DNA from: Streptomyces halstedii
Lineage (GTDB): Bacteria > Actinomycetota > Actinomycetes > Streptomycetales > Streptomycetaceae
Length of the DNA stretch: 64,000 nucleotides
Assembly: GCA_000720535.1 (NCBI GenBank)
Contig: JOAZ01000020.1
Location: 186,001 to 250,000 of the forward strand
Reading direction: 5' to 3'
Shown in pieces: positions 30,125-52,124 of the stretch. The translations under genes and the position numbers were made by a program. The notes under the pieces were generated by a model. It saw only the letters and a program-made list of their open reading frames with translations, had not been told where the DNA came from and searched no databases. Every line of letters begins with the position of its first letter. The first letter of the stretch is position 1.

Positions 30125-30667
30125 ATGAGTGAGATCAACGACGAAAAGACGCCTCTATTCCGGTCACGGGCCGCCGTTCGTATTGCGGCCGCGCCCCATG
30201 AGGTCTATTCGGTGATCAGCGATCTGCCGCGCAGTGGTGAGTGGAGTCCGGAATGCCGGGGAGGAGCCTGGGTCGCCGGGGAACCCGGTGCCGTGGGTGC
30301 CGTGTTCCAGGGGGAGAACGTGCGCGGTCCGGAGGTCGTCTCCTGGGCGCCGGTGGTGCGCGGGGGATGGACCACCAGGGCGGAGGTGGTGGCCGCCGAG
30401 CCGGGGCGCTCCTTCCGCTGGGCCATGCACAACGCGGCCGGGGTCAAGCAGGACAGCGTGTGGGGCTTCGACGTCGAGGAGGACGGCGAGGAGAGCGTGC
30501 TGATCCACCACTTCCGGATGGGCACGGCCACCGAGGGCGTCCTCGGGATCACCGCGGAGATGGACGAGAGCGGGAAAAGGCGATTCTTCGCGGAGTGGGG
30601 GGAGAAGATCGACGGCGATCTCGCCGCCACCCTTCGACGTATCAAGGACGTCATCGAGAAACGGTGA
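30125..30667 (+). CDS. SRPBCC-fold (polyketide cyclase/START-like) protein
   Basis: A 180-residue protein with the SRPBCC helix-grip pattern: AAVRIAAAPHEVYSVISDL, the following RSGEWSPECRGGAW, the strand FRWAMHNAAG and a long C-terminal helix (FFAEWGEKIDGDLAATLRRI). These folds bind hydrophobic ligands and serve as cyclases, aromatases or ligand carriers in biosynthetic clusters. It is the first gene of the cluster and runs in the same direction as the two ligases that start 109 bp downstream. No catalytic residue can be assigned. A role in handling the aromatic intermediate is inference. Confidence 0.72.
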   Translation: MSEINDEKTPLFRSRAAVRIAAAPHEVYSVISDLPRSGEWSPECRGGAWVAGEPGAVGAVFQGENVRGPEVVSWAPVVRGGWTTRAEVVAAEPGRSFRWAMHNAAGVKQDSVWGFDVEEDGEESVLIHHFRMGTATEGVLGITAEMDESGKRRFFAEWGEKIDGDLAATLRRIKDVIEKR

Positions 30668-30775
30668 TCCGATTTCCGTCCGTTGCGGTCCGCTTGTTTC
30701 CGGGACGTCTTTTTCAGCGGACTGCCACCCGTCAGTTGAAGGCACATCGGAAAGCCGTGGCAGAGAAGGACGCAG

Positions 30776-32359
30776 ATGCTTCTTCAGCGTATCGGAAATC
30801 AGGGTATTCAACTCGGGCGGCTCTTCGAACGGGCCGCCTCCCGGCATGGAGCGAACATCCTCGTCCTGGACCACGACCTCGACATCGCACCGGAGCTGGG
30901 CCGCCGGGCGACCGTCGCCGAAGTGGCGGACGTGGTGGACGACATCGCGTCCCGGCTGTGGGCAGCGCGGGTCCGCCCCGGCGAGCGTGTCGTCGTCCAC
31001 AAGTCCGACGGTTTCGACATCATGCTGCTGGCCTGCGCGGCGGCGCGCATCGGCGCCGTGCCGGTGCTGCTCTCACCGGCGCTCGACGGCGAGACGGTCG
31101 CCGAGCTGGTCCGCCGGACGGACCGGCCGTACCTGATCACCGATCAGGAGAAGCTGGAGAACGAGCTGCCGGCGGAGGTTGCCGGTCTCGCCGAGCGGGT
31201 GATCCTCACCTCCGGCAGCCACCCGGGCTGTCTGGAGCTGGCCGCGCTGGCGGGCGTGGAGCGTGTCGCCCCCGTCGTCATGCCCGCCCGGCACCCGATG
31301 CTGATCACCCACACCTCGGGCACCACGGGTACGCCCAAACTGGCCGTGCACACCGGGTTCAGCCTCCAGTCGCGCTACCGCCCGCAGGCCTCCGTCACCC
31401 GGCCGCTGATACCGGGCCGGGAGACCATCGCGATCCACGTCTCCTTCGTGCACTCCCGGCTCGTGACCGCGCTCGCCATCGCACTGCGCCGGGGCTTCCC
31501 CGTCGTCGTGCTCCGCGATCCGGACCCCAAGCGGGTCGGTGATCTCTTCGCCCGGCTGAAGCCGGGCATCCTGGAGGCGCACCCCAACTCGTTCATGGAG
31601 TGGGAGGAGCTGGCGGACGACCCGCGTGGACCGCTGTCCAACGTCAAGCTGTTCAGCAGCACCTTCGACGCCATCCACCCGCGCACCGTGCACCGGCTGC
31701 TGCGGGCGAGCAGGCGCAGGGCGCCGTTGTTCGGGCAGTTGTACGGGCAGAGCGAGGTGGGCCCGGCGGTGGTACGGGGATTCACCCGGCGCCGCACCCT
31801 GGACGACGACGGCCGCTGCGTCGGCATGCCGTTCCCCGGGATGACGGACGTACGGGTGGTCAGCCGCGACGGGAACCCGTCCTCCGCGCGGAACCCCGGC
31901 TACATCGAGGTCCGCAGCGACGGACGGATCGTCACCTACCTCGGGGAGCGGGCACGGTACGACGCCCAGGTGTCCGACGGCGGCTGGTGGCGCATGGGCG
32001 ACGTCGGCTACCGGACCCGGTGGGGCTGCGTGCACCTGCTGGACCGCGAGGTCGACCTCATCGAGGGGTTCGGCAGCACGCTCGCCGCCGAGGACACGCT
32101 CTTCGGGAAGCTGCCGGAACTCACCGAGGCCATCATCATCCCCGGACCGGACGGCAGGGCCGTACCCGTGGTGTGCACCAGGGACGACAAGCCCCTCGAC
32201 CCGGTGTCCTGGAAGCGCGCCGCGGCCTCCCTGCCGCCGATGGCGGAACCGGTGCAGTGGCGGCTCGGGGATCTGCCGCAGACCGCCACCACGAAGATCA
32301 AGCGGCTGGAGCTCGCCCGGCTGCTGGCCGACGGGAGCGGGAAGCCGCCCCGGCCGTAG
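30776..32359 (+). CDS. Acyl-AMP/CoA ligase-family enzyme, tandem copy 1 (candidate diazotase)
   Basis: A 527-residue ANL-superfamily adenylating enzyme. It has the phosphate loop HTSGTTGTPK (about residue 180), YGQSEVG, the hinge region WWRMGDVGYRTRWGC, LLDREVDLIEG, and the adenylation lysine region TATTKIKRLEL near the end. GAAGGA precedes the ATG. Together with copy 2 it starts MxLQRIGNxGIxLG, and both diverge from ordinary fatty-acid ligases. In cremeomycin and related pathways an ANL-family ligase (CreM, AvaA6, CmaA6) uses ATP to condense nitrous acid with an aromatic amine, giving a diazo group. The nitrous-acid genes nearby make one of these two ligases a good candidate for that step. 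CoA or amide ligation is the alternative. Confidence 0.8.
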   Translation: MLLQRIGNQGIQLGRLFERAASRHGANILVLDHDLDIAPELGRRATVAEVADVVDDIASRLWAARVRPGERVVVHKSDGFDIMLLACAAARIGAVPVLLSPALDGETVAELVRRTDRPYLITDQEKLENELPAEVAGLAERVILTSGSHPGCLELAALAGVERVAPVVMPARHPMLITHTSGTTGTPKLAVHTGFSLQSRYRPQASVTRPLIPGRETIAIHVSFVHSRLVTALAIALRRGFPVVVLRDPDPKRVGDLFARLKPGILEAHPNSFMEWEELADDPRGPLSNVKLFSSTFDAIHPRTVHRLLRASRRRAPLFGQLYGQSEVGPAVVRGFTRRRTLDDDGRCVGMPFPGMTDVRVVSRDGNPSSARNPGYIEVRSDGRIVTYLGERARYDAQVSDGGWWRMGDVGYRTRWGCVHLLDREVDLIEGFGSTLAAEDTLFGKLPELTEAIIIPGPDGRAVPVVCTRDDKPLDPVSWKRAAASLPPMAEPVQWRLGDLPQTATTKIKRLELARLLADGSGKPPRP

Positions 32360-32370
32360 CGACGCTCCCG

Positions 32371-32445
32371 GCACCCCGTACGCCGGCCCGCACCCCGTAC
32401 GCCGACCGGCACCCGTACTCCGTCCCGCACCCCGTACGCCGGCCG
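32371..32445. repeat. 19-bp tandem repeat between the two ligase genes
   Basis: Four units based on GCACCCCGTACGCCGGCCC (19, 19, 18 and 19 bp, with changes in copies 2 to 4). It begins 11 bp after the first ligase stop. It may be a replication-slippage product or mRNA structure. Confidence 0.6.
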
Positions 32446-32514: not shown

Positions 32515-34089
32515 ATGTTCCTGCAACGCATCGGCAACAAGGGCATCCGGCTCGGCACGGTCTTCGACCGGGCGGCCGCGCGTCATCCCGCGAACCCCGT
32601 CTACCTGGACCACGCGCTCGACATCGCGCCGGAGCTGGGCCACCGGGTGACGCTGACCGAGATCGCGGATCTGGTGGACGACTTCGCCTCCCGGCTGTGG
32701 GCCTCGCGGGTGCGGCCCGGGGACCATGTGGTCGTCCACAAGTCGGACAGCTTCGACATCTCCCTGCTCGCCTACAGCGTGGCGCGCGTCGGGGCGGTGC
32801 CGGTCCTGCTGTCGCCGAAGCTGGACGGCGAGACCGTCGCCCGGCTGCTGGGGCGGCTGCGCCGGCCGACCCTGGTGACCGACCAGGCGAAGCTGGAGAA
32901 GGAACTGCCGCCCGCCGTGTTCGAGTTGACGGAACGGGTGCTGCTGGCGGCCGGGAGCTTCCCGGAGGCGGTCTCGCTGGACTCGCTCGCCGGGGTCGCT
33001 CGGGTCCGTCCGGTGACCCGGCCGCAGAACCTGCCGGCGCTGATCACCCACACCTCGGGCACCACCGGGCTGCCGAAGCTCGCGGTCCAGACCGGGCACA
33101 CGATCCAGGCCCGCTGCCGCCCTCAGTCCGTCCTGCTCGCGCCGGTGAGCCGCCGCGAACCCATCGCCGTCCACGTCTCGTTCGCGCATTCGAGGATGAT
33201 CAGCGGGGCGGCGCTGTTCGCGTTGCGTGGTCATCCGCTCATCGTGCTGCGGGACGACGAACCGGAGCGGGTGGCCGAGCTCTTCTCCCGTATCCCCCCG
33301 GGCGTGGTCGAGTCGCACCCCAACACGCTGCTGCACTGGGAGGTTCTGGCGGACCATCCCGCCAGGCCGCTGGCCCGGGTGCGCTGCTTCAGCAACACCT
33401 TCGACGCCATCCACCCCCGTACGGTGGAGACGCTGCTGGGTGCCTCGGAGCGGCGCGTGCCGTTCTTCGCGCAGACCTACGGGCAGAGCGAGACCGGGGC
33501 AATCTGCGCGCGGACCTACACCCGGCGCCACCGGCTGGGCGCCGACGGCCGGTGCGTGGGCCGGAACTTCTCCGGGCTGACCGAGGTGCGGGTGGTGAGC
33601 CGGGACGGGCGCACGCCCACCAAGGACTCCCCCGGGCACATCGAGGCGCGCAGCGGCGGGCAGATCGTCACCTACTTCGGTGAACAGGAGCGGTTCGACG
33701 GGCAGTTCTCGGCGGACGGCTGGTGGCGGATGGGGGACCTCGGATACCGCACCCGGTGGGGGTGCGTGCACCTGCTGGACCGGGAGGTCGACGAGATCCC
33801 GGGCATCAGCAGCACGCTGGAGCTGGAGGACAAGCTGTTCACGCGGCTTCCGGAGCTGCTGGAGGTGATCATCGTCCCGGGCGGGGGCGGGGCGCCGGTT
33901 CCCGTGGTGTGCACCCGCGGGGACGCGCCGCTCGACCGTGCCCGGTGGCGGAGCGCGGTGGTGGATCTGCCGGAGCTGGCGGAGCCGGTGCAGCGGCGGC
34001 TGGAGGAGCTGCCGCACACCGCCACCACCAAGGTCAAGCGGCTGGAGCTGGCCCGGCTGCTGGCCGGGCCCGAGGGTGCCGCCGACTGA
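32515..34089 (+). CDS. Acyl-AMP/CoA ligase-family enzyme, tandem copy 2
   Basis: A 524-residue paralogue of the preceding gene, similar over its full length by eye (MFLQRIGNKGIRLGTVFDRA at the start). Adenylation motifs are intact: HTSGTTGLPK, TYGQSETG, WWRMGDLGYRTRWGC, LLDREVDEIPG and TATTKVKRLEL. GGGAAGG lies before the ATG. Tandem duplication followed by divergence suggests that the pair act on different partners: for example, one activates nitrite for diazotisation and the other activates the aromatic carboxylate. The sequence alone does not say which. A 17-bp-stem terminator follows directly. Confidence 0.8.
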   Translation: MFLQRIGNKGIRLGTVFDRAAARHPANPVYLDHALDIAPELGHRVTLTEIADLVDDFASRLWASRVRPGDHVVVHKSDSFDISLLAYSVARVGAVPVLLSPKLDGETVARLLGRLRRPTLVTDQAKLEKELPPAVFELTERVLLAAGSFPEAVSLDSLAGVARVRPVTRPQNLPALITHTSGTTGLPKLAVQTGHTIQARCRPQSVLLAPVSRREPIAVHVSFAHSRMISGAALFALRGHPLIVLRDDEPERVAELFSRIPPGVVESHPNTLLHWEVLADHPARPLARVRCFSNTFDAIHPRTVETLLGASERRVPFFAQTYGQSETGAICARTYTRRHRLGADGRCVGRNFSGLTEVRVVSRDGRTPTKDSPGHIEARSGGQIVTYFGEQERFDGQFSADGWWRMGDLGYRTRWGCVHLLDREVDEIPGISSTLELEDKLFTRLPELLEVIIVPGGGGAPVPVVCTRGDAPLDRARWRSAVVDLPELAEPVQRRLEELPHTATTKVKRLELARLLAGPEGAAD

Positions 34090-34096
34090 GCGGGCG

Positions 34097-34136: not shown

Positions 34137-34150
34137 TTCGCGCGAGGTGG

Positions 34151-36019
34151 TCAGTCGGCCACGTCGCCGAAGTCGGGGCGCACGCCCCGCGCGGACCGGA
34201 TCTCGTCGTTGCTGGTGCCGGCGGCGACCATCGGCCAGACCATGGCGTCCTGGTGGACGATGAAGTCCACGACGACGGGCCGGTCGTCGACGGCGTTGGC
34301 CTTCTGGATGACGGCGTCGAGGTCGGACGGGTCCTCGCAGCGCAGGCCGACGCAGCCCATCGCCTCGGCGAGCTTGACGAAGTCCGGCACGCGGGTGCCG
34401 TGCACGGGCGCGGCGGCGCCGGACTCGGCCGGGGGCCGGTGCAGCGCGGTGTGGGAGTAGCGCTGGTCGTAGAAGAGGGTCTGCCACTGGCGGACCATCC
34501 CGAGGGCGCCGTTGTTGATGACGGCGACCTTGATCGGGATGTTGTTGAGCGCGCAGGTGGTGAGCTCCTGGTTGGTCATCTGGAAGCAGCCGTCGCCGTC
34601 GATCGCCCAGACCGTGCGGTCCGGCATGCCCGCCTTGGCGCCCATCGCGGCCGGGACGGCGTAGCCCATGGTGCCCGCGCCCCCGGAGTTCAGCCAGTGG
34701 CGGGGCTCCTGGAAGCGGAGGAACTGCGAGGCCCACATCTGGTGCTGGCCGACGCCCGCCGCGAAGACGGTCCCCTCGGGGGCGAGCCGGCCGATCCGCT
34801 CGATGACCCGCTGGGGTGACAGTCGGCCCTCGGGCGCGGGTTCGTAGCCGAGCGGATAGCGGGTCCGCCAGTCGTCGAGCCGTTCCCACCAGGCGGTGCG
34901 GTCGCCGTGGTTGCCCGCCTCGTGCTCGGACCGGACGACATGGAGCAGGGCCTCCAGCACCTCGCGGGCGTCGCCGACGATCGGCACGTCGGCGGCGCGG
35001 TTCTTGCCGATCTCGGCCGGGTCGACGTCCGCGTGCACGACCTTGGCGTACGGGGCGAAGCTGTCCAGCCTGCCGGTCACCCGGTCGTCGAAGCGCGCGC
35101 CGACGGCGAAGATCAGGTCCGCCTTCTGGAGCGCGGTCACCGCGGCCACCGTGCCGTGCATGCCGGGCATGCCCAGGCAGCGCGGATGATCAGCCGGGAT
35201 GGTGCCCAGTGCCATCAGGGTGGTGACGACGGGGACCCCGGTCAGCTCCACCAGGGACCTCAGTTCGTCGGCGGCCCCGGCCTTGACGACGCCTCCGCCG
35301 ACGTAGAGGACCGGGCGTTCGGCCGCCAGGAGCAGCTCGGCGGCCTGGCGGATCTGCCGGTCGTGCGGCCTGCCGACGCGCTGGTAGCCGGGCAGTTCGG
35401 TCCGCTGCGGCGGGCAGTACGCGGCCGGCCGCTGGAGGGCGTCCTTGGTGATGTCGACCAGGACCGGTCCGGGGCGCCCGGTGGAGGCGACGTGGAACGC
35501 CTCCGCGATCACGCGCGGGATGTCGGCCGGGTCGGTGACCAGGTAGTTGTGTTTGGTGATCGGCACGGTGATGCCGCAGATGTCCGCCTCCTGGAAGGAG
35601 TCGGTGCCGATCGACGAGGAGGGCACCTGCCCCGTCACGGCGACGATCGGCACCGAGTCCATGTAGGCGTCGGCGATGGCCGTGACCAGGTTGGTGGCGC
35701 CCGGCCCTGACGTGGCCATGCAGACGCCGACCTTGCCGGTGGCCTGGGCGTAACCGGTGGCCGCGTGGCCGGCGCCCTGCTCGTGGCGGACCAGGATGTG
35801 CCGGAGCTTGACGGAGTCCATCAGCGGGTCGTAGGCGGGCAGGACCGCACCGCCCGGGATGCCGAAGACGGTGTCGGCCCCGGCTTCCTCCAGCGAGCGG
35901 ATGAGGGCCTGGGCGCCGGTCAGGCGGGGCGCGGCGTCGCCGGTCCCGGGCTCCAGGGCGGTGGGCGGGGCGGCGGTCTCCGCCCGCTCCGCGCGGTCAG
36001 CTGTCGCGTATTCGGTCAT
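34151..36019 (-). CDS. ilvB: Acetolactate (acetohydroxyacid) synthase catalytic subunit, extra copy inside the cluster
   Basis: A 622-residue ThDP enzyme. The catalytic glutamate lies in [15 protein letters not shown], and ThDP/Mg motifs read [15 protein letters not shown] and [15 protein letters not shown]-domain and substrate-channel motifs (GARFDDRV) are intact. GGAGAG precedes the ATG. It joins two pyruvates, or pyruvate and 2-oxobutyrate, in branched-chain amino-acid synthesis. No regulatory subunit (ilvH) or ilvC is adjacent, unlike the usual housekeeping locus. The herbicide-sensitivity stretch reads [15 protein letters not shown], with Ser where the plant enzyme has Ala205 (a known resistance site). 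It may be a resistant target copy or a biosynthetic ThDP enzyme. Confidence 0.9.
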
Positions 36020-36279: not shown

Positions 36280-37500
36280 TCAGTCCGCGCGGGCGGCCGA
36301 GCGTGCCGTGACGCGCAGGAAGAGCAGGGCCACGAACGCCAGGGCGGCGCCCAGTCCGTACACGGTCGCCATTCCGGCCGGGAGCGTGAGGCCGCCGAGC
36401 ACGGTGCCGAGGCCGATGCCGAGGTAGATCGAGGAGGAGTTCAGGGAGACCACCAGGGGGGCCTCCTGGGGTGCGACCTCGATGAGCCGGTGCTGCTGCG
36501 GGGGCGTCTGGCACCAGCTGCTCGCTCCCCAGAGCAGGACCAGGAGGCCGACCGCCACGCGCAGCGAGACATCGGCGGCGGCGAGCCAGGCCAGCAGGCC
36601 GAGGGCGAGCACCATGCAGACGTATCCGGTGGTCAGGACCCGGACGGAGCCCCAGCGGTCGGTCGCGTAGCCGGCGGCGAGGTTGCCGATGACGGCGCCC
36701 AGGCCGTAGAGGAAGAGCATCCAGAGCAGGGCGCTCTCCGGGATGTCCACCGCGGCGAGGGCGGGGACGCTGTAGGCGTAGGCCGTGTAGCACGCTCCCA
36801 TGCCGAGCACGGTGAGGGGCAGTACGGCGAGTACGGCCGGACGGCGCAGCACCGCGAGCCGGGTGCGCAGCGGCACGCGCGCGTTGCCGGGCAGCGCGGG
36901 CATGATCACCCGCAGCCAGACGGCGACGAGCAGGCACAGCGCGGCCACCAGGCCGAGCGCGGTCCGCCATCCCAGCCAGTGGCTCGCCAGGTTGCCGAGG
37001 GGCACCCCGAGCGCGGTGGCGACGGTGAGGCCCCCGACGACCACGGCCAGGGCACGGGCCCGGAGTTCGGGGCGGACGAGCGCGGCGCTGACCGCACCGG
37101 CGCAGGGTGTGTAGGCGGCGGCGCCCGCGGCCGCCAGGACCCGGCTGGCGATCAGTACGGCGAAGTTCGGTGCCAGCGCCGAGCCGAGGTTGGCCACACC
37201 GAGCGTGAGCAGGGCGAGCACCAGCAGGGTCCGGCGCGGCAGGCGGGCGGTGGCGGTGGCGAGCACCGGTGAGAGGACGGCGTAGGCGCCCGCGAACACC
37301 GTGACGGACTGGCCGGCCCGTGCCGCCGACACGTGCAGGGAGTCGGCCATGGAGGGCAGGAACCCGGCCACCACGAAGGCGTCCGTGCCGACGGCGAACG
37401 TGCCTAAGGCCAGGACCAGGGTGGAGGAGAGTCCCCCCGGCTCGGCTTTCGACTCCCGGCCGACGGCCGGGCGGCCGGACGAAACAGAGACATCAGACAT
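36280..37500 (-). CDS. MFS drug/metabolite exporter (DHA1-like), with a TTA codon
   Basis: A 406-residue transporter with about 12 membrane helices. Motif A-like segments are visible between helices 2 and 3 ([17 protein letters not shown]) and between helices 8 and 9 ([12 protein letters not shown]). The start MSDVSVSSG is preceded by AAGGAGA. Codon 32 is TTA (minus strand 37407-37405), which is rare in Streptomyces and makes translation depend on the bldA tRNA. Position inside the cluster suggests export of, or resistance to, its product. The 260 bp between this gene and the acetolactate synthase start hold no gene. Confidence 0.87.
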
Positions 37501-37562: not shown

Positions 37563-37658
37563 GCGTACGGTCGGCGCCTCGTGCGGGCGTACGGTCAGCG
37601 GCTCGTGCGGGCGTGTGGCCGGCGCCTCGTGCGGGCCTGCGGTCAGCGGCTCGTCCGG
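37563..37658. repeat. 24-bp tandem repeat, four copies
   Basis: Units beginning GCGTACGGTCGGCGCCTCGT recur at 24-bp spacing with a few changes. The last copy runs into the final codons of the Rrf2 gene. The array lies between the Rrf2 and MFS genes. Confidence 0.7.
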
Positions 37659-38128
37659 GTGTAGCGGCGCCGGTTGCGGTCGGCCGCTCCGGGGGGCGCG
37701 GCCGCCATCAGGTCCGCGACGCTCTGTCCGGCGAGCTCACGGCGCCAGGCCAGTTCGGCCCGGCGCATCGCGGAGGCGACCCCGCAGGGCCGCTGGAACT
37801 CCTGGATGAGCTCGGCGGTCTCCGCCTCTTCCGCCCGCTGCCGGATCTCGGTGCAGCGGAAGACGTCGTCGCGTCCCTCGATGGCGGTCACCACGTCCAT
37901 GAGGGTGATCCGCTCCGGGGGCCGGGCCAGCCGGAACCCGCCCCGGGCCCCGGCCGTGGAGCTGAGGATGCCCGCCCGGACCAAGGCTTGCAGGCGCTTG
38001 TTCAGGTACGCGGGCGGCAGCCCGAACCAGGCCGCCAGTGTCGCCGTCGGCACCGGTTCGTCGTCTTCGAGCCAGGCCAGCGCCAGACAGCAGTGCAGGC
38101 CCCACTCGACTCCCTCACCCATCCGCAT
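37643..38128 (-). CDS. Rrf2-family transcriptional regulator
   Basis: A 161-residue winged-helix protein of the Rrf2/IscR/NsrR family (PTATLAAWFGLPPAYLNKRL; the wing GARGGFRLARPPERITLMDV). Family members often bind an Fe-S cluster through three cysteines in the loop after the wing; here only two are present (FRCTE and RPCGV), so an NsrR-type nitric-oxide-sensing cluster is uncertain. A reactive-nitrogen sensor would fit a nitrous-acid-producing cluster, but this is speculation. It diverges from the quinone-oxidoreductase gene and precedes the exporter. The ATG at 38128 has no clear ribosome-binding site, and TATCAT just upstream suggests a leaderless transcript. Confidence 0.82.
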   Translation of the reverse strand: MRMGEGVEWGLHCCLALAWLEDDEPVPTATLAAWFGLPPAYLNKRLQALVRAGILSSTAGARGGFRLARPPERITLMDVVTAIEGRDDVFRCTEIRQRAEEAETAELIQEFQRPCGVASAMRRAELAWRRELAGQSVADLMAAAPPGAADRNRRRYTRTSR

Positions 38129-38454: not shown

Positions 38455-39459
38455 ATGCGTGCCGCCTACGTCGAAGAGCTCGGTCCCCCTGACCTCATCC
38501 GGGTCGGCGAGGTGCCCCCGCCCCGGCCAGGTCCCGACGACGTGCTCGTGGACGTCGAGGTGACCGCCGTCAACCACGTCGACACCTTCGTACGGTCGGG
38601 CGCGTGGCGCACCCCCGTGCCCTTTCCCTTCGTCATCGGACGGGATGTGGTGGGCACGGTCACCCGGGCCGGACCCGGAGCACCGGGCTTCGCCGCCGGA
38701 GACCGGGTGTGGTGCAGCAGCCTGGGGCACGCGGGCCGTCAGGGCGCGGCCGCCGAGCGGGTGGCGGTGCCCGCCGACCGGCTGTACCGGCTGCCGGAGG
38801 GCGTCGACGCGGTGGACGCGGTGGCGCTCTCCCACCCGGCCTCGACCGCCTACCTCGCGCTCTTCACCCACGGGCGGATGCGCGCGGGCGAGACGGTCGT
38901 CGTCCTCGGGGGCGCGGGAAACGTCGGCGGTGCCGCCGTGGTGATGGCCGCTCAGGCCGGTGCGCGTGTGGTGGCCGTCGCCTCCGCCGAGGACGCGGAC
39001 CACTGCCGGGGGCTCGGCGCCCACCATGTCGTGGACTACCGGGACCCCGAAGCACCGCGGTCGATCCGCGCGTACGCCCCGCGAGGCGTCGACCTGCACG
39101 TCGACACCTCCGGCACCAACGACCTGGAAACGGCGGTGGACCTCCTCGCCCCGCGCGGGCGCGCCGTCGTCCTCGCCGGTCTGCGGACCCGGCCGGTGCT
39201 GCCCGCCGGGGCGCTGTACCTCCAGGACCGGTCGGTGCGCGGATTCGCCATCTCCAACGCCCGGCCGGACGAACTCGCCGACGCGGCCGCGCACATCAAC
39301 ACCCTGCTGGCCGACGGGACCCTGCGTCCCCGGACCACGGAGGTGCTGCCGCTGGGCGAGGCCGCCGAGGCCCACCGGAGGCTGGAGGCGGGCGCGGTCG
39401 ACGGAAAACTGGTGCTGCGCGTCGCCAAGGGCCGTCCCGTCGGCGGTACGGCGGCCTGA
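38455..39459 (+). CDS. NADPH:quinone oxidoreductase-type medium-chain reductase (zinc-free)
   Basis: A 334-residue MDR-superfamily enzyme of the quinone oxidoreductase (QOR/zeta-crystallin) branch. The N-terminal half shows the family pattern VTAVNHVDTFVRSG and PFPFVIGRDVVGTV and has no zinc-binding cysteine set. The Rossmann motif is VLGGAGNVGGAAVVMA, followed by AHHVVDYRD. It transfers hydride from NADPH to a quinone or enone. It is the first gene after the SARP-box repeats and is followed by the nitrous-acid genes. It may reduce an o-diazoquinone or quinone-like intermediate, or remove a diazo group; that role is a guess. Confidence 0.82.
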   Translation: MRAAYVEELGPPDLIRVGEVPPPRPGPDDVLVDVEVTAVNHVDTFVRSGAWRTPVPFPFVIGRDVVGTVTRAGPGAPGFAAGDRVWCSSLGHAGRQGAAAERVAVPADRLYRLPEGVDAVDAVALSHPASTAYLALFTHGRMRAGETVVVLGGAGNVGGAAVVMAAQAGARVVAVASAEDADHCRGLGAHHVVDYRDPEAPRSIRAYAPRGVDLHVDTSGTNDLETAVDLLAPRGRAVVLAGLRTRPVLPAGALYLQDRSVRGFAISNARPDELADAAAHINTLLADGTLRPRTTEVLPLGEAAEAHRRLEAGAVDGKLVLRVAKGRPVGGTAA

Positions 39460-43264: not shown

Positions 43265-44575
43265 GTGAGAGGTAGCGTGCCGTCACAGCACGACGGTTCG
43301 GGCCGGGCCGGCCCGGAACCGGTCGAACGCGCAGGGCCGTTCGAGGAGGCCGGGCCCTTCCGGCCGTTGGAGCACGTCGGGCGGCTCCAGGCGGTCGGGC
43401 CCATGGACCCGGCGGAGTCCACGGCGTACGTCGCCGCGCTCTCGGAGCTGGGGCCCCGGCTGTTCTCCTCCATGCCGCGCAGCGACCAGCGCGCCAAGGG
43501 CATGCACTACCTGCGTGGTCTGCTGGAGGCCGAGGGGCGCAAGTCCATCCGCAACATCGCGACGCTCTTCGGCGGCGACGCGACGGAGCAGAGCCTGCAC
43601 CACTTCATCACCAGTTCCACCTGGGACTGGGTGCCGGTGCGGCGCGCGCTGGCGCAGTACGTGGAGCGGGTGGCGCCACCGCAGGCGTACGTGGTCCACC
43701 CGCTGGTCATCCCCAGGGCGGGGGCGACGTCGGTGGGGGTCGAGCGGCGCTATGTGCCCGCGCTGGGCCAGGTGGTCAACTCCCAGCAGGCGGTGGGGGT
43801 GTGGGCCGCGGCCCCGTACTGGAGCACCCCGCTGAACTGGAGGCTCCAGCTGCCCCGGAGGTGGCTGGCGGACCAGCGCACGCGCCGTCAGGCCGCCATA
43901 CCCGAGGCCGAGGTGGCGGAGAGTCTGGGCCAGTGCTCCGTCGCGGCCTGTCTGGAGCTGATCAGGAAGTACCGGCTGCCGGTCAGACCGGTGGTGATGG
44001 ACGCCCGCGAGACGGACGTGACCACGGCCATCGGGCGGCTGCGTGACGCGGACACCCCGATGCTGCTGCGGATCGACGGTGCCCTGCGGCTGATCGTCGA
44101 GGAGCCCGCGTTCCCCCGGAGGGGCGTCGGCATGACGGCGCAGCAGATCATGTCGACCGTGTGGCACATGCGGCGCCCGGGGCTGCGGGCGGGCCCGCGC
44201 ACGCTGTCCCCCGACCCGGTGGGGGCGGTCGGCGGGGTGGTCACCGTCGCGGCCACGCCGGCCGCCGACGCGGGCCGGCCGGCGGACAGGAACGACATGC
44301 TGCTGATCGGGGTCGCGGAGCGGGGGCAGTGGCCCGCGCAACTGTGGCTCACCGACCTGACCGCCCTGAGCCCCGGCGAGCTGCTCCGGCTGACCCGGCT
44401 GACCCTCCGGGTGGAGCGGGACCAGGCGGAGATCGGCGGCGAGGTGGGGTTCAGGGACTTCTCGGGGCGGCTGTTCACCGGGTGGCACCGCCACATCACC
44501 CTCGCCTCGGCGGCCCACACGGTCAGGGTGCAGCACCGGCTGGCGGGATCGCTGCTGCCGGCCGGATCGGGCTGA
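43265..44575 (+). CDS. IS701-family transposase-like protein with altered catalytic site, possibly domesticated
   Basis: A 436-residue protein clearly related to IS701/DDE_5 transposases ([59 protein letters not shown]). Active IS701 enzymes have aspartates in a WVIDDTGFxKxG-like stretch; here it reads [11 protein letters not shown], so the first catalytic aspartate is lost, while a later one (VVMDARE) remains. No terminal inverted repeats or target duplications are seen beside the gene. I chose the GTG at 43265 because GGGAGG lies six bases upstream. It sits cleanly between cluster operons, so it is more likely a co-opted DNA-binding protein, perhaps regulatory, than a mobile element. Confidence 0.72.
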
Positions 44576-45180: not shown

Positions 45181-46362
45181 GTGGAGAACACCCTGCTCGG
45201 CATCCGGCTCGAACCGGCCCCGCACCAGCCCGCCTGGGAAGACGCCGCGCAGGTCGCGCGGGTCAGGACGGAACTGGCCGCCCGGCCGCCGCTGGTGTCC
45301 TCCGGCGACGTCCGCCTGCTGCGGTCGCTGCTGGCCCGGGTGGCCGCGGGCGAGGCCCAGGTGATCCAGGCGGGCGACTGCGCCGAGGACCCCGACGAGT
45401 GCACGGCGGGGCACGTCGCGCGCAAGGCCGCCCTGCTGGACCTGATGGCCGGCGCCCTGGGTCTGCTGACGCACCGTCCGGTGCTGCGGGCGGGCCGGAT
45501 CGCCGGCCAGTACGCGAAACCGCGCTCCAGGCCGAGCGAGACGGTCGGCGGAGTCGAACTGCCCGTGTTCCGGGGCCACATGGTCAACAGTCCCGAACCG
45601 GACCCGGACGCCAGACGCCCGGATCCGCTGCGGCTGCTCACCGGCTACATGGCCGCCCGGGACGTGCTGCGGCACCTCGGCTGGCCTCCCTCGGCCGGGG
45701 CCGGCGGGCACGGGACCGGCGGCCGGGTGTGGACGAGCCACGAGGCGTTGCTCCTCGACTACGAGGTGCCGATGCTGCGCCGCGACGACGACGGCCGGCT
45801 GCTGCTGGCGTCCACCCACTGGCCGTGGATCGGCGAGCGGACCCGGCAGGTGGACGGCGCCCACGTCGCGCTCCTCGCCGAGGTGGCCAACCCGGTCGCC
45901 TGCAAGGTGGGGCCGCGCATGACGGCGGAGGACCTGCTGGCGCTGTGTTCCCGGCTCGACCCGGAGCGCGAGCCGGGGCGGCTCACCCTGATCGCGCGCA
46001 TGGGCGCCGGCACCGTCGCCGACGCGCTGCCGCCGCTGGTGGCGGCGGTCCACGGGGCCGGGCACCCGGTGATCTGGCTGACCGATCCGCTGCACGGCAA
46101 CACCGTGACCGCGCCCGGCGGCCTCAAGACCCGGTTCGTCGGGACCGTCGCGCGCGAGGCCGCCGCCTTCCGCCGGGCGGTGGAGGACGCGGGTGGCGTC
46201 GCCGGGGGGCTCCATCTGGAGACCACGCCCGACGCGGTCGCCGAGTGCGTCGAGGACGCCTCGGCCGTCCACCGGGTCGGAGAAGGGGCGTACACGACCT
46301 TCTGCGACCCACGGCTCAACCCGGACCAGGCGCTCTCGGTGATCTCGGCCTGGGGCGGGTGA
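45181..46362 (+). CDS. Class II 3-deoxy-7-phosphoheptulonate (DAHP) synthase, PhzC/CalB1-like
   Basis: A 393-residue plant-type (class II) DAHP synthase. It has the substrate-binding segment [14 protein letters not shown], the [14 protein letters not shown] stretch, the [11 protein letters not shown] motif and the metal-ligand histidine in DPLHGNT. It joins phosphoenolpyruvate and erythrose-4-phosphate, feeding the shikimate pathway. I preferred the GTG at 45181, with GGAGG upstream, over the in-frame GTG at 45157. The remaining genes of the operon make 3-hydroxyanthranilate. An extra DAHP synthase often accompanies such genes, as in phenazine and calcimycin clusters, to raise chorismate supply. 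Confidence 0.9.
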
Positions 46363-46483: not shown

Positions 46484-47254
46484 GTGAAGAAGACCATCGC
46501 CCTCGTCACGGGGGCGGCAGGAGGCATCGGCAGTGCCGTCACCCGCGCCCTGGCGGAGCGGGGGACGGCCGTGGCCGCCGTCGACCGCGACGCGGAACCG
46601 CTCGAACAGGTCACCGCCGCCTTCGCCGCGAAGGGGCTGGACGTCACCGCGTTCCCGGCGGACGTCACCCGCGCCGACGACGTGGAGCGCGCGGTGGCGG
46701 CGGTCGAGCGGCGCCTCGGCCCGGTGGACCACCTCGTCAACGCGGCGGGCGTGCTGCGGACGGGCGAAGCGGTCACGCTCACCGACGACGACTGGAACAC
46801 CACCTTCGCGGTCAACACCGCCGGTGTCTTCCACGTCTCGCGCGCCGTGGTGGGCCGCATGGCCCGGCGCGGACACGGCAGCGTGGTCACGGTGGCGTCC
46901 AACGCGGCCGGGACACCCCGCACGGGGATGGCCGCGTACGCCGCGTCCAAGGCGGCGGCGGCCATGTTCACCAAGTGCCTCGGCCTGGAGGTCGCCCGGT
47001 ACGGCGTCCGCTGCAACGTCGTCGCGCCGGGGTCCACGGACACACCCATGCTCAGCTCGATGTGGAAGGACGCCTCGGGTCCCCGCAGGACGATCGAGGG
47101 CATCCCCGAGAGCTTCAAGGTCGGCATCCCGCTCGGGAAGCTCGCCCGGCCCGACGACATCGCGGACGCCGTGGTGTTCCTGCTCTCGGACCGGGCGTCC
47201 CACATCACCCTGCACAGCCTCCTCGTGGACGGCGGCGCCTCCCTGGGCAACTGA
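46484..47254 (+). CDS. DhbA/EntA-type short-chain dehydrogenase, probable DHHA to 3-hydroxyanthranilate dehydrogenase
   Basis: A 256-residue SDR. The cofactor motif is [11 protein letters not shown], the strand NAAGVLR, the catalytic Tyr-Lys pair YAASKAAA, and the family stretch [12 protein letters not shown] is typical of 2,3-dihydro-2,3-dihydroxybenzoate dehydrogenases. With PhzD and PhzE beside it, the likely substrate is trans-2,3-dihydro-3-hydroxyanthranilate, oxidised to 3-hydroxyanthranilate, as proposed for CalB4 in calcimycin. The start is GTG 46484, preceded by GGAGGT. Synthesis of 2,3-dihydroxybenzoate is the alternative but would need an isochorismate synthase, which is not here. 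Confidence 0.87.
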
Positions 47255-47294: not shown

Positions 47295-47918
47295 ATGGCC
47301 GGCATCCCGACCATCGAGCCCTACGCCCTGCCCACGGCCGGAGAGCTGCCCCGCAACACGGCCCCCTGGACCATCGACCCCGCGCGCGCCGTGCTGCTCG
47401 TCCACGACATGCAGCGCTACTTCCTGGCCGCGCTGCCCGAGGCCCTGCGTTCCCCACTGGTCGAGAACGCGGCCCTGGTGCGCCGGCAGTGTGCCGAACT
47501 CGGCGTCCCGGTCGCCTACACGGCGCAGCCGGGCGGCATGACGGAGCGGCAGCGGGGCCTGCTGAAGGACTTCTGGGGCGCGGGCATGCGCCCCTCCCCC
47601 GCCGACCGCGAGGTCGTCGAGCCGCTCGCCCCGCGCCCCGGGGACTGGCTGCTCACCAAGTGGCGGTACAGCGCCTTCTTCCGTACCGACCTGCTCGACC
47701 GGATGCGCGGCCACGGGCGCGACCAGCTGGTCGTCTGCGGGGTGTACGCGCACATCGGCGTGCTCGCCACGGCCGTGGAGTCCTTCAGCCACGACATGGA
47801 GACCTTCCTGGTGGCGGACGCCGTGGCCGACTTCTGCCGGGACGACCACCGCATGGCCGTGGAGTACGCCGCCCGGCGCTGTGCCGTGGTCACCACGGTC
47901 AAGGAGGCGTTCGCGTGA
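47295..47918 (+). CDS. phzD: PhzD-type isochorismatase
   Basis: A 207-residue isochorismatase without the carrier-protein domain of EntB. The catalytic residues fall exactly at the PhzD positions, Asp38 ([10 protein letters not shown]) and Lys122 ([10 protein letters not shown]). The GVYAHIGVL stretch replaces the cysteine of related amidases. It hydrolyses the vinyl ether of 2-amino-2-deoxyisochorismate (ADIC) to trans-2,3-dihydro-3-hydroxyanthranilate plus pyruvate. GAGAGGA precedes the ATG. Its stop overlaps the GTG start of the PhzE gene, which provides its substrate. Confidence 0.92.
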
Positions 47919-49867
47919 CCCCGTCGCCCGAGCCGGCGGGGCCGTCCGGGCCGCTCGGACGGATCCTCGGCGGCGATCCGCCGCCGTTCGCCGTGCTGCA
48001 CCGCCCCGAGACCACCGGCCCCGGTGTGCTGGAGGTCCTGGTCGGTGAGGTGTCCGAGCCCGCGTCGCTCGCGGATCTGCCCCTGCGGGCGGCGGGCGCG
48101 GGCGCGCCGGGCGGGCACGACACCCTCGTCGTCATGCCGTACCGCCAGATCGCCGAGCGGGGGTTCGCGGCGCCCGACGACGGGTCGCCGCTGCTCGCGC
48201 TGGCGGTCACCGGGCAGGAGACCGTGCCCCTCGCCGAGGCGGTGGCGCGGATCGGCGACCGGCCGATCCGGGTGGACGGCGGCCGGTTCGACATCGGTGA
48301 CGAGCCGTACGCGGAGCTGGTGCGCCGGGTCGTCACCGACGAGATCGGCCAGGGGGCCGGCTCCAACTTCGTCGTCAAGCGCACGTTCACCGCCGAGATC
48401 GCCTCCTACGGCCCGCGCAGCGCCCTCACGCTCTTCCGGCGGCTGCTGGAGCGGGAGACGGGCTCCTACTGGACGTTCGTCGTCCACACGGGTGACCGTA
48501 CGTTCGTCGGGGCCACTCCGGAGCGGCACATCAGCGTGCGCGGCGGCACGGCGGTGATGAACCCCGTCAGCGGCACGTACCGCTATCCGCCGTCGGGGCC
48601 CACCCTGCCGGAGGTGATGGCCTTCCTCGCGGACCGCAAGGAGACCGACGAACTCACCATGGTGGTCGACGAAGAGCTGAAGATGATGGCCCGGATCTGC
48701 GACGGCGGCGGCCGGGTCACCGGCCCGCACCTGAAGGAGATGGCCCGGCTCGCGCACACCGAGTACTTCATCGAGGGCCGCACCACGCGCGACCCCCGGG
48801 AGATCCTGCGCGAGACCATGTTCGCCCCCACGGTGACGGGCAGTCCGCTGGAGAGCGCAGCCCGGGTCATCAGCCGTTACGAACCCGAGGGGCGCGGCTA
48901 CTACAGCGGGGTCGTCGCGCTGGTGGGGCGGGACGCGCGGGGGGCGGCGGAACTGGACTCCGCGATCCTCATCCGCACCGCCGACATCGCGGCCGACGGC
49001 GCGCTGCGGATCGGTGTCGGGGCGACGCTGGTGCGCCACTCCGACCCGGTCTCCGAGGTCGCCGAGACCCGGGCGAAGGCCGAAGGGCTGATCTCCGCCC
49101 TGCACGCGGGGCCGTCCGCCCGCTTCGCGGACCACCCCGAGGTGCGGTCGGCGCTGGCCCGCCGCAACGAGGACTTGGCCGCGTTCTGGCTGGCCGGGGG
49201 CGCGGGGCCGGACGGGTGCGACCCGGCGCTCACCGGGCGGCGGGTGCTGGTCGTGGACGCCGAGGACACCTTCACCTCGATGCTCGGACATCAACTGCGC
49301 GCCCTGGGGCTGGCGGTGACGGTGCGCCGCTTCGACGAGCCGTACGCGCTGGAGGGACACGACCTGGTCGTCCTGGGGCCGGGGCCCGGTGACCCGCGCG
49401 ATGCCGCGCATCCCAAGATCGGTCATCTGCGCGGCACGGTCCGCCGTCTCCTGCGTGGGCGGCGGCAGCCCTTCCTGGCCGTCTGTCTCAGCCATCAGGT
49501 GCTCGCCGCCGAGCTGGGCTTCGGCCTGGTGCGCCGGCCGGTGCCCAACCAGGGCGCGCGGCGGGAGATCGAGCTGTTCGGCCGCCTCGAACAGGTCGGC
49601 TTCTACAACACGTTCGCCGCCCGCAGCGGCGAGGACAAGCGGGACTGCGGCGGGGTCGGGGCCGTGGAGGTGAGCCGCGACCCGGACACCGGCGAGGTGC
49701 ACGCCCTGCGGGGCCCGCACTTCGCGTCGGTGCAGTTCCATCCGGAATCGGTCCTCACGCGGGACGGGGTGCGCATCGTCGGCGCGCTGCTCACCGGGCT
49801 GCCGGGGGGCGGTCCCACGGGAGGGGGTCCGCCCGGCGGCGGGGCGGCGGCCCCGTCCGGATCCTGA
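47915..49867 (+). CDS. phzE: PhzE-type 2-amino-2-deoxyisochorismate (ADIC) synthase
   Basis: A 650-residue fusion. The chorismate-binding domain (about 1-410) has [35 protein letters not shown] and [13 protein letters not shown]. The class I glutamine amidotransferase domain (about 435-630) has the nucleophilic cysteine in [10 protein letters not shown] (near residue 522) and the His-Glu pair in FHPESVL. It aminates chorismate to ADIC using ammonia from glutamine. The GTG start overlaps the phzD stop. A glycine/proline-rich tail ends the protein. Anthranilate synthase is related, but pairing with PhzD and DhbA points to ADIC. Confidence 0.91.
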
Positions 49868-49892
49868 CAGGCGTCTCACATCGTGGCACGTG

Positions 49893-49918
49893 GGGGTAGG
49901 CGGAAAAGTCACTACCCC
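49893..49918 (+). terminator. Candidate hairpin after the phzE gene
   Basis: GGGGTAG pairs with CTACCCC around a 12-nt loop, 26 bp after the phzE stop. There is no T-tract. The rest of 49868-50282 shows no gene and should contain the promoter of the SARP gene. Confidence 0.4.
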
Positions 49919-50282
49919 GCGCCCCGCGCATCCACGATCATTGGAGGCACCGCTGAGCACAGACGACCATCGATGCGCCGTTGACAGGTGACACCAGGCA
50001 GCCTTGCACCCGGGGGATGGCAAGTGATCTGCGTTTCCTCTTCGAACGACGGGGCTGTGCACGGGCCCCTCGGCACGCGACCGGCGCGGGTGCGCCCCTT
50101 GTGCCGTCGTGTGAGACGGCCGGAGCGGTGTTGCCGCCCGTGCGGTGATCCGTAGGAGCGCGCGTGCGCTCCGGCCGGCGTGACGCCTGTGGCCCGGACG
50201 GACCGGCCCGCCGCGGAAGACCCTGCCGCGACGGGCCGGTCCATGGGCCGAACCCGAGTCGACGAACGGTGAGGACCTGGTG

Positions 50283-52124
50283 ATGTTGCACTTCGCTCTG
50301 CTGGGACCGATGGAGATCCGCGTGGACGGGGAGGTCCGCACCCCGAGCCCGCCCATGGCCCGCCGGGTCCTCGCGGTGCTGCTGACCCATGCGTACCGTG
50401 TGGTGCCCACGGAACTGCTGATCGACGAGCTGTGGGGCGAGCATCCCCCCAAGCGGGCGCGCAAGACCGTCCAGACGTACATCTGCCACTTACGCAAGGC
50501 CCTCGGCGGTGACGGGGGTTCCGGACCGGGGGGAGGTGATCCCGTGGAGACCCATCCGTACGGCTACCGGCTGCGGCTCCAGGGATGCCAGTCGGACGTG
50601 TGGCTGTTCCAGGAGCGGGTGCGCGCGGGGCGCGAGGCGCTGGCCCGGGGCGAGGCGAGCGAGGGCGTCGCGACGCTGCGGAGCGGGCTGGAGCTGTGGC
50701 GGGGCGCGGCCCTGGAGGGCGTGGAGACGGGCACGGTCCTGGGGGCGCGGGCCACCCGGCTCGAAGAGCTCAGGATGCGGGCGCTGGAGCAGCGCGTCGC
50801 GGGCGAACTCGCCCTGGGCCGACACCACTCACTGCTGGAGGAGATCCGGGATCTGGCGTCCCAGCATCCGCTGAACGAGGAGTTCTGCGCCCAGCTGATG
50901 ACGGCGGCGAGTGCCTGCGGGCAGCGCGGTGAGGCGCTCGGCGCCTACGCCCGGATGCGCCGGGCCATGGCCGAGCAGCTGGGGCTGGAGCCCTCCGAAC
51001 GGCTGCGGGAGCTGCAACGCGACATCCTGACGGGCCAGGGCGAGTCCCCGTCCGCGCGTACGGCGGCCCGGGGTCCGGGCCGGAGCGGGGAACCGGGCGC
51101 TCCCTTCCATCTGCCCGCGGCCATCGGCGACTTCGTGGGACGGCTGGACGAACTGGACCGGATCGAGCGGGCGGTGAGCGGCGACGGCCGCGCCTCGGAG
51201 GTACGGGTGGTGACGGTGACCGGCAGCCCGGGGGTGGGGAAAACGGAGGCGGCGCTCCAGGTGGCGCACCGCCTGCGGGGCCGTTTTCCCGACGGGCAGC
51301 TCAGGGGGCTGCTGTGCCGGAAGGACCGGACGCCGCGCGATCCGGGCGAGGTCCTGGGCGAGTTGCTCGCCGCCGTGGGGTACGACCGCGCGGTCCTGCC
51401 GGAGCGGGTGGACGACCTCGCCCGGATGTTCCGCGGGTGGGCGGCCGGCCGGCGTTTCCTGCTCGTGCTGGACGACGCGGTGAGCCGGGACCAGGTCGTG
51501 CCGTTGCTGCCCGCCGGGACGGACAACACGGTGATCGTCACGTCCCGCTGCCGGCTGTCGGGGCTTCCCGGCTCGGTGACGGATGTCGAACTGGGGCCGC
51601 TGCCCGAGGCCGTGAGCAGGCAGTTGCTGACCCAGGTGATCGGCCCCACCCGGGCGCGGCGGGAACCCGCCGCGGTGTCGGCCGTCGTGGCCAAGTGCGA
51701 GGGCATGCCCGCCGCCGTCCGGGCGGTGGGCGGCCGGATCGCCACCTGGCCGCACCGCAGCCTGGCGGACTTCGCGGCGCGTCTGGAGGACGACGGGCAG
51801 CGCCTGGAGGAGCTGAGCAGTCCGCACCTGGACATGCGGCGCTACCTCGTCGAGTCCGCCGACCGGCTGCCGCGCAGTGCGAGGGACGTGCTGGCCGCGC
51901 TGGGCCGGGCGGCGACGGCCGAGGTCACGGTCGCGGACCTCGCGCTGGGCCTGTGCCGCTCCACGTCGTCCATCGAACGTTCGGTGGAGCTGCTGGCGGC
52001 CTTCCACGTGGTCAGGCCGGTCGTCCGCGACGGCGGTTACGTCCTGCGGCTCGCGCCGCTGATCCGGCTCGCCTTCGCGGGCGGAGGCCACACCACCCCG
52101 GCTCCCGAACTCGCGGCGCGGTGA
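50283..52124 (+). CDS. SARP-family pathway activator with BTAD and NB-ARC domains, containing a TTA codon
   Basis: A 613-residue regulator. An OmpR-like winged helix (about 1-95; RRVLAVLLTHAYRVVPTELL, then KRARKTVQTYICHLRKALGG) is followed by a BTAD bacterial transcriptional activation domain (about 100-250) and an NB-ARC-type ATPase with P-loop TGSPGVGKTEAAL near residue 313 and Walker B LLVLDDAV. It lacks a long TPR tail, so it is shorter than AfsR. Codon 70 (50490-50492) is TTA, placing it under bldA control. It closes the cluster and probably binds the TGACGGA repeats at 38322 and 44770. A GTG at 50280 is an alternative start. Confidence 0.9.
   Translation: MLHFALLGPMEIRVDGEVRTPSPPMARRVLAVLLTHAYRVVPTELLIDELWGEHPPKRARKTVQTYICHLRKALGGDGGSGPGGGDPVETHPYGYRLRLQGCQSDVWLFQERVRAGREALARGEASEGVATLRSGLELWRGAALEGVETGTVLGARATRLEELRMRALEQRVAGELALGRHHSLLEEIRDLASQHPLNEEFCAQLMTAASACGQRGEALGAYARMRRAMAEQLGLEPSERLRELQRDILTGQGESPSARTAARGPGRSGEPGAPFHLPAAIGDFVGRLDELDRIERAVSGDGRASEVRVVTVTGSPGVGKTEAALQVAHRLRGRFPDGQLRGLLCRKDRTPRDPGEVLGELLAAVGYDRAVLPERVDDLARMFRGWAAGRRFLLVLDDAVSRDQVVPLLPAGTDNTVIVTSRCRLSGLPGSVTDVELGPLPEAVSRQLLTQVIGPTRARREPAAVSAVVAKCEGMPAAVRAVGGRIATWPHRSLADFAARLEDDGQRLEELSSPHLDMRRYLVESADRLPRSARDVLAALGRAATAEVTVADLALGLCRSTSSIERSVELLAAFHVVRPVVRDGGYVLRLAPLIRLAFAGGGHTTPAPELAAR

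Follow-up and report, generated by a model that had tools for sequence, protein, structure and literature searches.

The window analysed here, 64,000 nucleotides of Streptomyces halstedii DNA (contig JOAZ01000020.1, positions 186,001 to 250,000) within a 7.74 Mb assembly, contains a further copy of an already published gene cluster, the penzonemycin (pzm) cluster. Penzonemycins are small Streptomyces aromatics with a rare nitrogen-nitrogen bond; Liu et al. (2022) list pzm1–pzm22 for penzonemycins A and B (PMC9323291, cited throughout for its accessible parts), and the published cluster comes from Streptomyces sp. SCSIO 40020 (PMC9323291). The initial annotation of the window proposed that a nitrous-acid pathway, 3-hydroxyanthranilate (3-HAA) synthesis and CreM-like ligases are joined in one diazo-type cluster, and this holds. 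Its remark that no described cluster with this combination came to mind is superseded by the pzm cluster, which has the same gene order (PMC9323291), so that no new combination has been discovered. New here are the pairing of two ligase lineages, a reduced core, the absence of pzm1 and an association with nitrate reductase in relatives. We consider it quite probable that this pzm cluster acylates 3-HAA, installs a C-4 diazonium group by means of nitrous acid and captures it with a four-carbon unit.

Read from right to left, the window follows pzm2 to pzm22 with order and families agreeing, which accounts for 21 of the 22 published genes (PMC9323291). Predicted lengths are equal for 15 of these 21, including a 432-residue transposase and a 622-residue acetolactate synthase, and the IS701 transposase occupies the same position in both clusters (PMC9323291). 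Genes were called with a simple codon-position scorer and compared with the list of open reading frames (ORFs). The genes named in the initial annotation (the overlapping FAD enzyme and lyase, the DAHP synthase-DhbA-PhzD-PhzE set, two ligases, an exporter and a SARP) are all present at about the same coordinates. It did not mention the SRPBCC protein, the acetolactate synthase, the quinone-reductase-like protein and the transposase, nor the F420-dependent oxidoreductase and GNAT acetyltransferase to the right of 52124. The genes from pzm19 to pzm2 are as follows.

30125–30667, plus strand: SRPBCC/polyketide-cyclase-fold protein, 180 amino acids (aa), pzm19 (PF10604, 47 bits)
30776–32359, plus strand: ANL1, CreM-like AMP-binding ligase, 527 aa, pzm18 (PF00501, 135.5 bits)
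32515–34089, plus strand: ANL2, second AMP-binding ligase from another lineage of the same family, pzm17 (annotated there with an earlier start)
34151–36019, minus strand: acetolactate synthase large subunit, extra copy, 622 aa, pzm16 (NF005860, 1059.6 bits, cut-off 881)
36280–37500, minus strand: major facilitator superfamily (MFS) exporter, 406 aa, pzm15 (PF07690)
37643–38128, minus strand: Rrf2-family regulator, 161 aa, pzm14 (PF02082)
38455–39459, plus strand: quinone-oxidoreductase-like protein of the zinc alcohol dehydrogenase family, 334 aa, pzm13 (PF00107/PF13602)
39545–41524, plus strand: CreE-type aspartate N-oxygenase, 659 aa, pzm12 (PF13454; PDB 8cp2, 693 bits)
41521–42954, plus strand: CreD-type nitrosuccinate lyase, pzm11 (NF052556, 749.7 bits, cut-off 650; PDB 5xny, CreD)
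43277–44575, plus strand: IS701-family transposase between the two modules, pzm10 (NF033540, 273.9 bits, cut-off 150)
45181–46362, plus strand: class II 3-deoxy-D-arabino-heptulosonate 7-phosphate (DAHP) synthase, PhzC-like, pzm9 (PF01474, 409.7 bits)
46484–47254, plus strand: DhbA-type dehydrogenase, pzm8 (TIGR04316, 354.5 bits, cut-off 300)
47295–47918, plus strand: PhzD-type isochorismatase, 207 aa, pzm7 (PDB 1nf9, PhzD, 320 bits)
47915–49867, plus strand: PhzE-type synthase, 650 aa, pzm6 (PDB 3r74, 736 bits)
50280–52124, plus strand: Streptomyces antibiotic regulatory protein (SARP), 614 aa, pzm5, listed as 653 aa (PF03704, 140 bits)
52254–53150, minus strand: F420-dependent luciferase-like (LLM) oxidoreductase, 298 aa, pzm4 (PF00296; TIGR03619, 212.7 bits, cut-off 166.9)
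53258–53779, minus strand: GNAT N-acetyltransferase, pzm3 (PF13527/PF00583)
54100–54351, plus strand: small protein of uncertain membership, 83 aa, pzm2 (no Pfam match; position and size agree with pzm2)

Both members of the aspartate-nitrosuccinate (ANS) nitrous-acid pathway are present. The CreE-like protein is an FAD/NAD(P)-binding enzyme that matched none of the NCBIfam models; its sole PDB match at E ≤ 0.01 is 8cp2, which we take to be the aspartate N-hydroxylase FzmM, with 693 bits over nearly the full length. The gene for the CreD-like protein shares four bases with it, and its product passes the NCBIfam "nitrosuccinate lyase" model (749.7 against a cut-off of 650) and has crystallised CreD (5xny) as top PDB match, at 576 bits against 301 for the next entry. 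These matches bear out the CreE/CreD assignment that had been suggested for the overlapping pair. The published table gives the pzm proteins 62, 67 and 48% identity with CreE, CreD and CreM of cremeomycin, respectively, the last figure being that of Pzm18, the counterpart of ANL1 (PMC9323291, Table 3). The 3-HAA module is likewise complete, with PhzE, PhzD and the DhbA-type dehydrogenase all recognised by profile or PDB matches. PDB 3r74 is deposited as component I of an anthranilate/p-aminobenzoate synthase, and presumably is PhzE. The DAHP synthase falls under its NCBIfam cut-off (393 versus 615 bits), while Pfam supports class II.

A second full 3-HAA set occurs elsewhere in the genome, at locus L018 (G000:C1:307001-327000, positions 1030–12123), where it is accompanied by a salicylate synthase (446 bits, cut-off 325), a β-ketoacyl-acyl carrier protein synthase III, a ligase, a carrier protein and an amidohydrolase. 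L018 is probably a dibenzoxazepinone or benzoxazole cluster. Demethylmycemycin A, which combines salicylate and 3-HAA, was co-isolated from the penzonemycin strain (PMC9323291). L018 fits this compound, and that two compound classes isolated together can each be matched to a cluster in the genome supports the pzm identification. The mycemycin clusters of PMC5867642 were considered and set aside; those described there use tryptophan dioxygenase and kynureninase. L018 may mask the loss of phzE from the pzm cluster.

In penzonemycin A, C-4 of 2-acetamido-3-hydroxybenzoic acid, beside the hydroxyl-bearing C-3, carries -NH-N=C(CH3)-CO-CH3, and the penzonemycins keep the 3-HAA nitrogen as an acetamide or propionamide (PMC9323291). 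From the structure of penzonemycin A it follows that the amine of 3-HAA is retained in acylated form, and that the N-N unit derives from a second nitrogen on C-4. The published route comprises two oxidations (Pzm19 and Pzm21), transamination by an unknown enzyme and diazotisation by Pzm18, and ends with Japp-Klingemann coupling to a unit obtained from acetolactate through reductions attributed to Pzm4 (PMC9323291).

What was observed directly is which genes and families are present and in what order, their agreement with the published table and the core conserved in relatives; every reaction that follows, like the substrate that each ligase uses and the source of the C-4 nitrogen, is what we infer from these observations. 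PhzC, PhzE, PhzD and the DhbA-type dehydrogenase would convert chorismate to 3-HAA, while CreE and CreD would release nitrous acid from aspartate. The GNAT acetyltransferase would likely acylate the 3-HAA amine, and a second nitrogen would be placed on C-4, ortho to the phenol. One or both of the CreM-family ligases, together with the SRPBCC protein, may then use ATP and nitrous acid to form a C-4 diazonium or o-quinone diazide. This electrophile, or a hydrazine made from it with the quinone reductase as a possible reductant, would be captured by an acetolactate-derived four-carbon unit. That unit could most simply be diacetyl, which with an aryl hydrazine would give Ar-NH-N=C(CH3)-CO-CH3 in a manner simpler than the published double reduction.

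The two ligases bear on the source of the C-4 nitrogen. ANL1 and ANL2 are 62% identical. A pattern-based scan of genome contigs with ANL1, which recovers close relatives only, yielded 74 loci, reduced to 73 when L094 (Acinetobacter, 23% identity) was dropped; flanks reached at most 10 kb and several contigs end early, so that absences are weak and all family counts are lower bounds. The ligase tree held 80 sequences, namely 78 of the 81 family members and the two from the window, and was rooted at the midpoint for drawing only. The second copy of L031, the first copy of L042 and L091 were left out at less than 480 aa. A split with support 100/100 divides the tree into 48 and 32 rows and separates ANL1 from ANL2; each lies in a supported group of five rows (100/99 and 100/100) with identical membership: the window, Streptomyces sp. 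MJM8645 (L021), S. rubellomurinus (L023) and Kitasatospora phosalacinea twice (L030 and L037). The two ligases thus form a lasting pair of two lineages, as their positions across this split argue against a recent tandem duplication. All five loci with the pair carry 3-HAA genes; they form one related group and count as one observation, not five independent ones.

Because the two lineages occur as a pair, we prefer for the C-4 nitrogen a route in which nitrous acid supplies both nitrogens of the aryl N-N unit: one ligase would C-nitrosate ortho to the phenol and, after reduction, the other would diazotise the resulting amine. The proposal is tentative, possible rather than likely. It would explain why the ANL1-ANL2 pair accompanies 3-HAA genes in the five loci and why an aminotransferase is lacking; none was found among the pzm genes examined. 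If true, it dispenses with the unknown transaminase on which the published proposal relies.

The glutamate of a YGQSE motif is invariant in all 17 aligned ligases, and a looser form of the motif occurs in 77 of the 78 longer ones (alignment A2 left out L062, which has a stop codon in the extracted sequence). We infer that it corresponds to E352 of CreM, described as an essential, conserved Mg-binding glutamate in the parts of PMC11705231 available to us. An SRPBCC homologue accompanies the ligase in 57 of the 73 family loci. Pzm19 is listed as a proposed oxidase (PMC9323291). Its Pfam polyketide-cyclase/START-like fold and this co-occurrence favour a role at the nitroso or diazo stage over oxidation, and the SRPBCC protein more likely handles or dehydrates such an intermediate. 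Three further loci (L041, L042 and L044) also contain two ligases from different branches of the tree. The second ligase adjoins an FAD-binding monooxygenase in L042 and L044, and a gene of the arylamine N-acetyltransferase group in L041.

We compared the window with longer stretches around its four sister loci: 60 kb from MJM8645, 45 kb each from S. rubellomurinus and K. phosalacinea NBRC 14627, and 35 kb from K. phosalacinea NRRL, whose contig stops inside the cluster. The SRPBCC protein, ANL1, ANL2, PhzC, PhzD, PhzE and the DhbA-type dehydrogenase are common to all four. CreE and CreD are found in three and are missing from the 35 kb of sequence from K. phosalacinea NRRL. An arylamine-type N-acetyltransferase was assigned by clustering in three of four, with PF00797 confirmed for the two checked (L176 and L178). 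A block of quinone reductase, Rrf2 regulator, MFS exporter and acetolactate synthase follows the 3-HAA genes in all three sister contigs that reach that far. It is complete in L186; in L188 and L190 the acetolactate synthase ends with the contig after 83 and 60 matched residues, respectively. The MFS and Rrf2 neighbours in the three clusters are 75–82% and 75–78% identical to those of the window, and a quinone reductase homologue occurs in at least 47 of the 73 family loci, plus the three sister clusters beyond those flanks.

Homologues of pzm3, pzm4, pzm5 and pzm20–22 were not found in the four sister stretches of 35–60 kb, where the short pzm2 could be missed; a luciferase-type gene in L191, 33% identical, was not counted as pzm4. 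Homologues of pzm22 were present in 8 of 41 genomes, its own included, and stand among other genes in the three relatives examined. The core is thus likely to consist of pzm6–9 and pzm11–19, with an acetyltransferase of varying family. The relatives direct attention first to this core and leave pzm1, pzm2, pzm4 and pzm20–22 doubtful. The published role of acetolactate synthase is supported by the sister clusters.

Two candidate functions within the conserved block were rejected. The Rrf2 protein scored 28.5 bits with the NsrR model against a cut-off of 182, which does not support an NsrR-type nitric-oxide sensor; its cysteines lie at positions 13, 14, 92 and 115, a spacing that presumably differs from that of NsrR. 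The quinone oxidoreductase was considered as a diazo reductase of AvaA7 type; AvaA7 has been likened in the literature to NADPH-dependent sugar epimerases, another family.

Several points weigh against our reading. Lengths are unequal for 6 of the 21 matched genes, five by 2–36 aa and the SARP by 39 aa (PMC9323291). The SARP is 653 aa in the published list versus a 614-aa ORF here (PMC9323291), and the ORF is bounded by an in-frame stop upstream. Identity with the deposited cluster (ON345781) was judged from order, size and function, not from aligned sequence. The LysR gene pzm1 does not lie beside pzm2 in the window, where a protocatechuate/beta-ketoadipate (pca) operon and an IclR gene are found instead; pzm1 is therefore probably dispensable. 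The link between cluster and compound is itself inferential, a bioinformatic proposal for which no gene deletion is reported in the accessible text (PMC9323291), and no other experimental study of the penzonemycin pathway was found in the partly accessible literature searched. As regards the ligases, the AvaA6 diazotase model gives ANL1 and ANL2 scores of 77 and 83 bits against a cut-off of 975, and among PDB entries a profile of 17 ligase sequences scores FadD and 4-chlorobenzoyl-CoA ligases higher than Tri17. The published roles of Pzm4 and Pzm21 are unsupported by the sister clusters. A last objection, the extraction solvent, is taken up below with the reading that it favours.

In the initial annotation, 3-HAA itself undergoes diazotisation at its amine, giving an o-diazoquinone carboxylate. 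In favour of this, 3-HAA resembles the cremeomycin precursor in being an o-aminophenol, and some relatives (for example L045 and L080) combine a single ligase with 3-HAA genes and CreE/CreD, with no gene of the N-acetyltransferase groups called nearby. For the window this reading is unlikely. In penzonemycins the C-2 nitrogen stays acylated and the N-N unit is at C-4, that amine being the acetamide and the hydrazone nitrogen sitting on C-4 in penzonemycin A (PMC9323291). The window cluster has an acetyltransferase gene, and PF00797-type genes occur in three of the four sister clusters. Eight loci (L045, L080, L043, L036, L081, L083, L084 and L093) combine 3-HAA genes and a ligase without the ANL1-ANL2 pair, several of them with CreE/CreD or nitrate reductase. 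Diazotised 3-HAA may be formed in such loci, for example L045 and L080.

Another reading keeps the C-4 o-quinone diazide of N-acyl-3-HAA and makes the hydrazone tail an artefact, formed by coupling at C-3 of butan-2-one during extraction. Coupling there would give the exact connectivity, as judged from chemistry. Broth and mycelial extract were indeed extracted with n-butanone, a possible four-carbon partner, and the tail is named a butanone hydrazone in the paper (PMC9323291). Against this, unactivated ketones couple slowly with quinone diazides, and the cluster has its own acetolactate synthase gene. That gene occupies an equivalent slot next to the MFS gene in all three sister contigs reaching that far, and in S. 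mexicanus (L091) it lies beside a truncated ligase. Its retention in sister clusters makes it plausible that the four-carbon unit is made on purpose, and we therefore rate an artefact as improbable.

The acetolactate synthase of the cluster is additional to the ilvB product of the ilvB-ilvN-ilvC region (G000:C31), with which it shares 75% identity. A tree of seven rows groups it with the S. mexicanus copy at support 99/98 (80% identity). In MJM8645, by contrast, the cluster copy shares 97% identity with the other copy of the same strain. The slot has thus been kept although its occupant changed on at least one occasion, consistent with a requirement for acetolactate itself. Diacetyl forms from acetolactate by loss of CO2 and oxidation without an enzyme. 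In L091 of S. mexicanus, positions 9953–12800 hold a 303-aa remnant of an ANL1-type ligase beside the acetolactate synthase, in the same relative orientation as in the window; the locus is possibly a decayed pzm-like cluster.

An extra acetolactate synthase could also be a self-resistance copy, with the product targeting branched-chain amino acid synthesis. It duplicates an ilvB that lies beside ilvN and ilvC (75% identity), no small subunit is found among the pzm genes and the slot is kept in the sister clusters; duplicated acetolactate synthase genes mark an inhibitor of the enzyme in a fungal cluster (PMC12616698, partly accessible). However, comparison with the ilvB copy and further copies gave no clear resistance pattern (Pro and Ser where the ilvB copy has Ala, Trp kept), and 97% identity between the two MJM8645 copies is unexpected for a resistant variant. 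The positions compared are, we assume, herbicide-resistance sites. Moreover, penzonemycin A is described as having no antibacterial or antifungal activity and only weak cytotoxicity (PMC9323291). Self-resistance is accordingly very unlikely, and a supply of acetolactate for the product is the reading that we retain. A phenazine cluster with unrelated neighbours, suggested by the PhzC-, PhzD- and PhzE-like genes, can practically be dismissed: the DhbA equivalog model passes its cut-off and indicates 3-HAA, and PhzF, PhzA/B and PhzG were absent from the 21 pzm-equivalent genes, the only ones searched for them, other contigs not being included.

The survey exposes an actinomycete cluster family built around the same ligase; in many of its members, nitrite appears to be supplied by a dedicated nitrate reductase. 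Among the 73 loci, CreE was found in 30, CreD in 29, a NarK-like transporter in 27, a NasA-like nitrate reductase in 27, an FAD monooxygenase in 27 and a PhzD or PhzE gene in 26. A nitrite source is thus present in 50 of 73 (CreE/CreD only, 23; NasA only, 18; both, 9), with neither in 23. This co-occurrence is better evidence than the sequence models that the ligase family uses nitrite.

The NasA-like gene starts within 8 kb and six genes of the ligase in the 27 loci, on the same strand in 24 of them. These are L022, L024–L027, L031–L033, L047, L051–L055, L057, L059–L062, L065, L067, L073, L077, L083, L090, L092 and L093. All but L031 (26 of 27) also have a NarK-like transporter, and nine have CreE/CreD. 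A second nitrate reductase homologue, 64–71% identical to the query, was present elsewhere in all nine genomes checked, which were hand-picked from the 27 (one match was partial). Since these genomes hold another copy, the ligase-linked one looks dedicated to nitrite supply. Single representatives scored below curated cut-offs, at 732 versus 1100 bits for the NasC model and 250 versus 311.7 for the NarK family. No dedicated nitrate reductase beside a CreM-type ligase was found described in the literature searched, which covers few subscription papers and others in part. In the accessible parts of two papers, non-dedicated nitrate reductases are mentioned as a possible nitrite source for alanosine (PMC12154649), and the 8-azaguanine cluster contains an MFS transporter of nitrate/nitrite type (PMC7674941).

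The pzm cluster shares CreE, CreD and a CreM-type ligase with the cremeomycin (cre) cluster and differs in its 3-HAA precursor, its two ligases and the acylated amine; the aromatic precursor of cremeomycin is reportedly 3-amino-4-hydroxybenzoic acid (3,4-AHBA). The avenalumic acid (ava) and p-coumaric acid (cma) clusters likewise combine a nitrous-acid pathway with an ATP-dependent diazotase, but use 3,4-AHBA and a type II polyketide synthase, and neither ligase of the window passes the AvaA6 model. We know of no nitrous-acid genes in the calcimycin and limazepine clusters. Those two share the chorismate-derived 3-HAA gene set (cited in PMC9323291). The tasikamide (aha) cluster resembles pzm in its ANS nitrous acid, its ligase (Aha11) and an aryl diazonium captured as a hydrazone, whereas aha uses an alkyl 5-hydroxyanthranilate and a peptide partner (PMC11705231). 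The crexazone (crx) cluster, as far as the accessible text describes it, also joins diazo-type genes to an aminohydroxybenzoate pathway. It differs in using 3,4-AHBA, and the crexazones named there are a 3-acetamido-4-hydroxybenzoic acid, a phenoxazinone and a further 3,4-AHBA compound (PMC11429834).

Three sister clusters carry an IS701-type transposase beside the quinone reductase (L186, positions 3126–4355; L188, 3686–4999; L190, 3728–4957). They are 76–85% identical to one another and about 50% to that of the window (43277–44575), which sits elsewhere in its cluster. The gene possibly encodes a domesticated, cluster-associated protein rather than marking a chance insertion. A search for inverted repeats as insertion sequence ends gave 16 pairs in this GC-rich DNA, none convincing.

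The pca operon lies directly right of the cluster (54522–61255), and its PcaB-like lyase (55835–57196) belongs to the same superfamily as CreD. In one relative (L175), a 20-kb stretch contains most of the pca operon genes but no pzm genes, which has little bearing on pzm20–21. A possible operon for furan formation, separate from the pzm genes, lies on the minus strand at 15675–20058. Its genes encode a (5-formylfuran-3-yl)methyl phosphate synthase (390.7 bits, cut-off 341) together with a methyltransferase, a zinc alcohol dehydrogenase and an aldehyde dehydrogenase.

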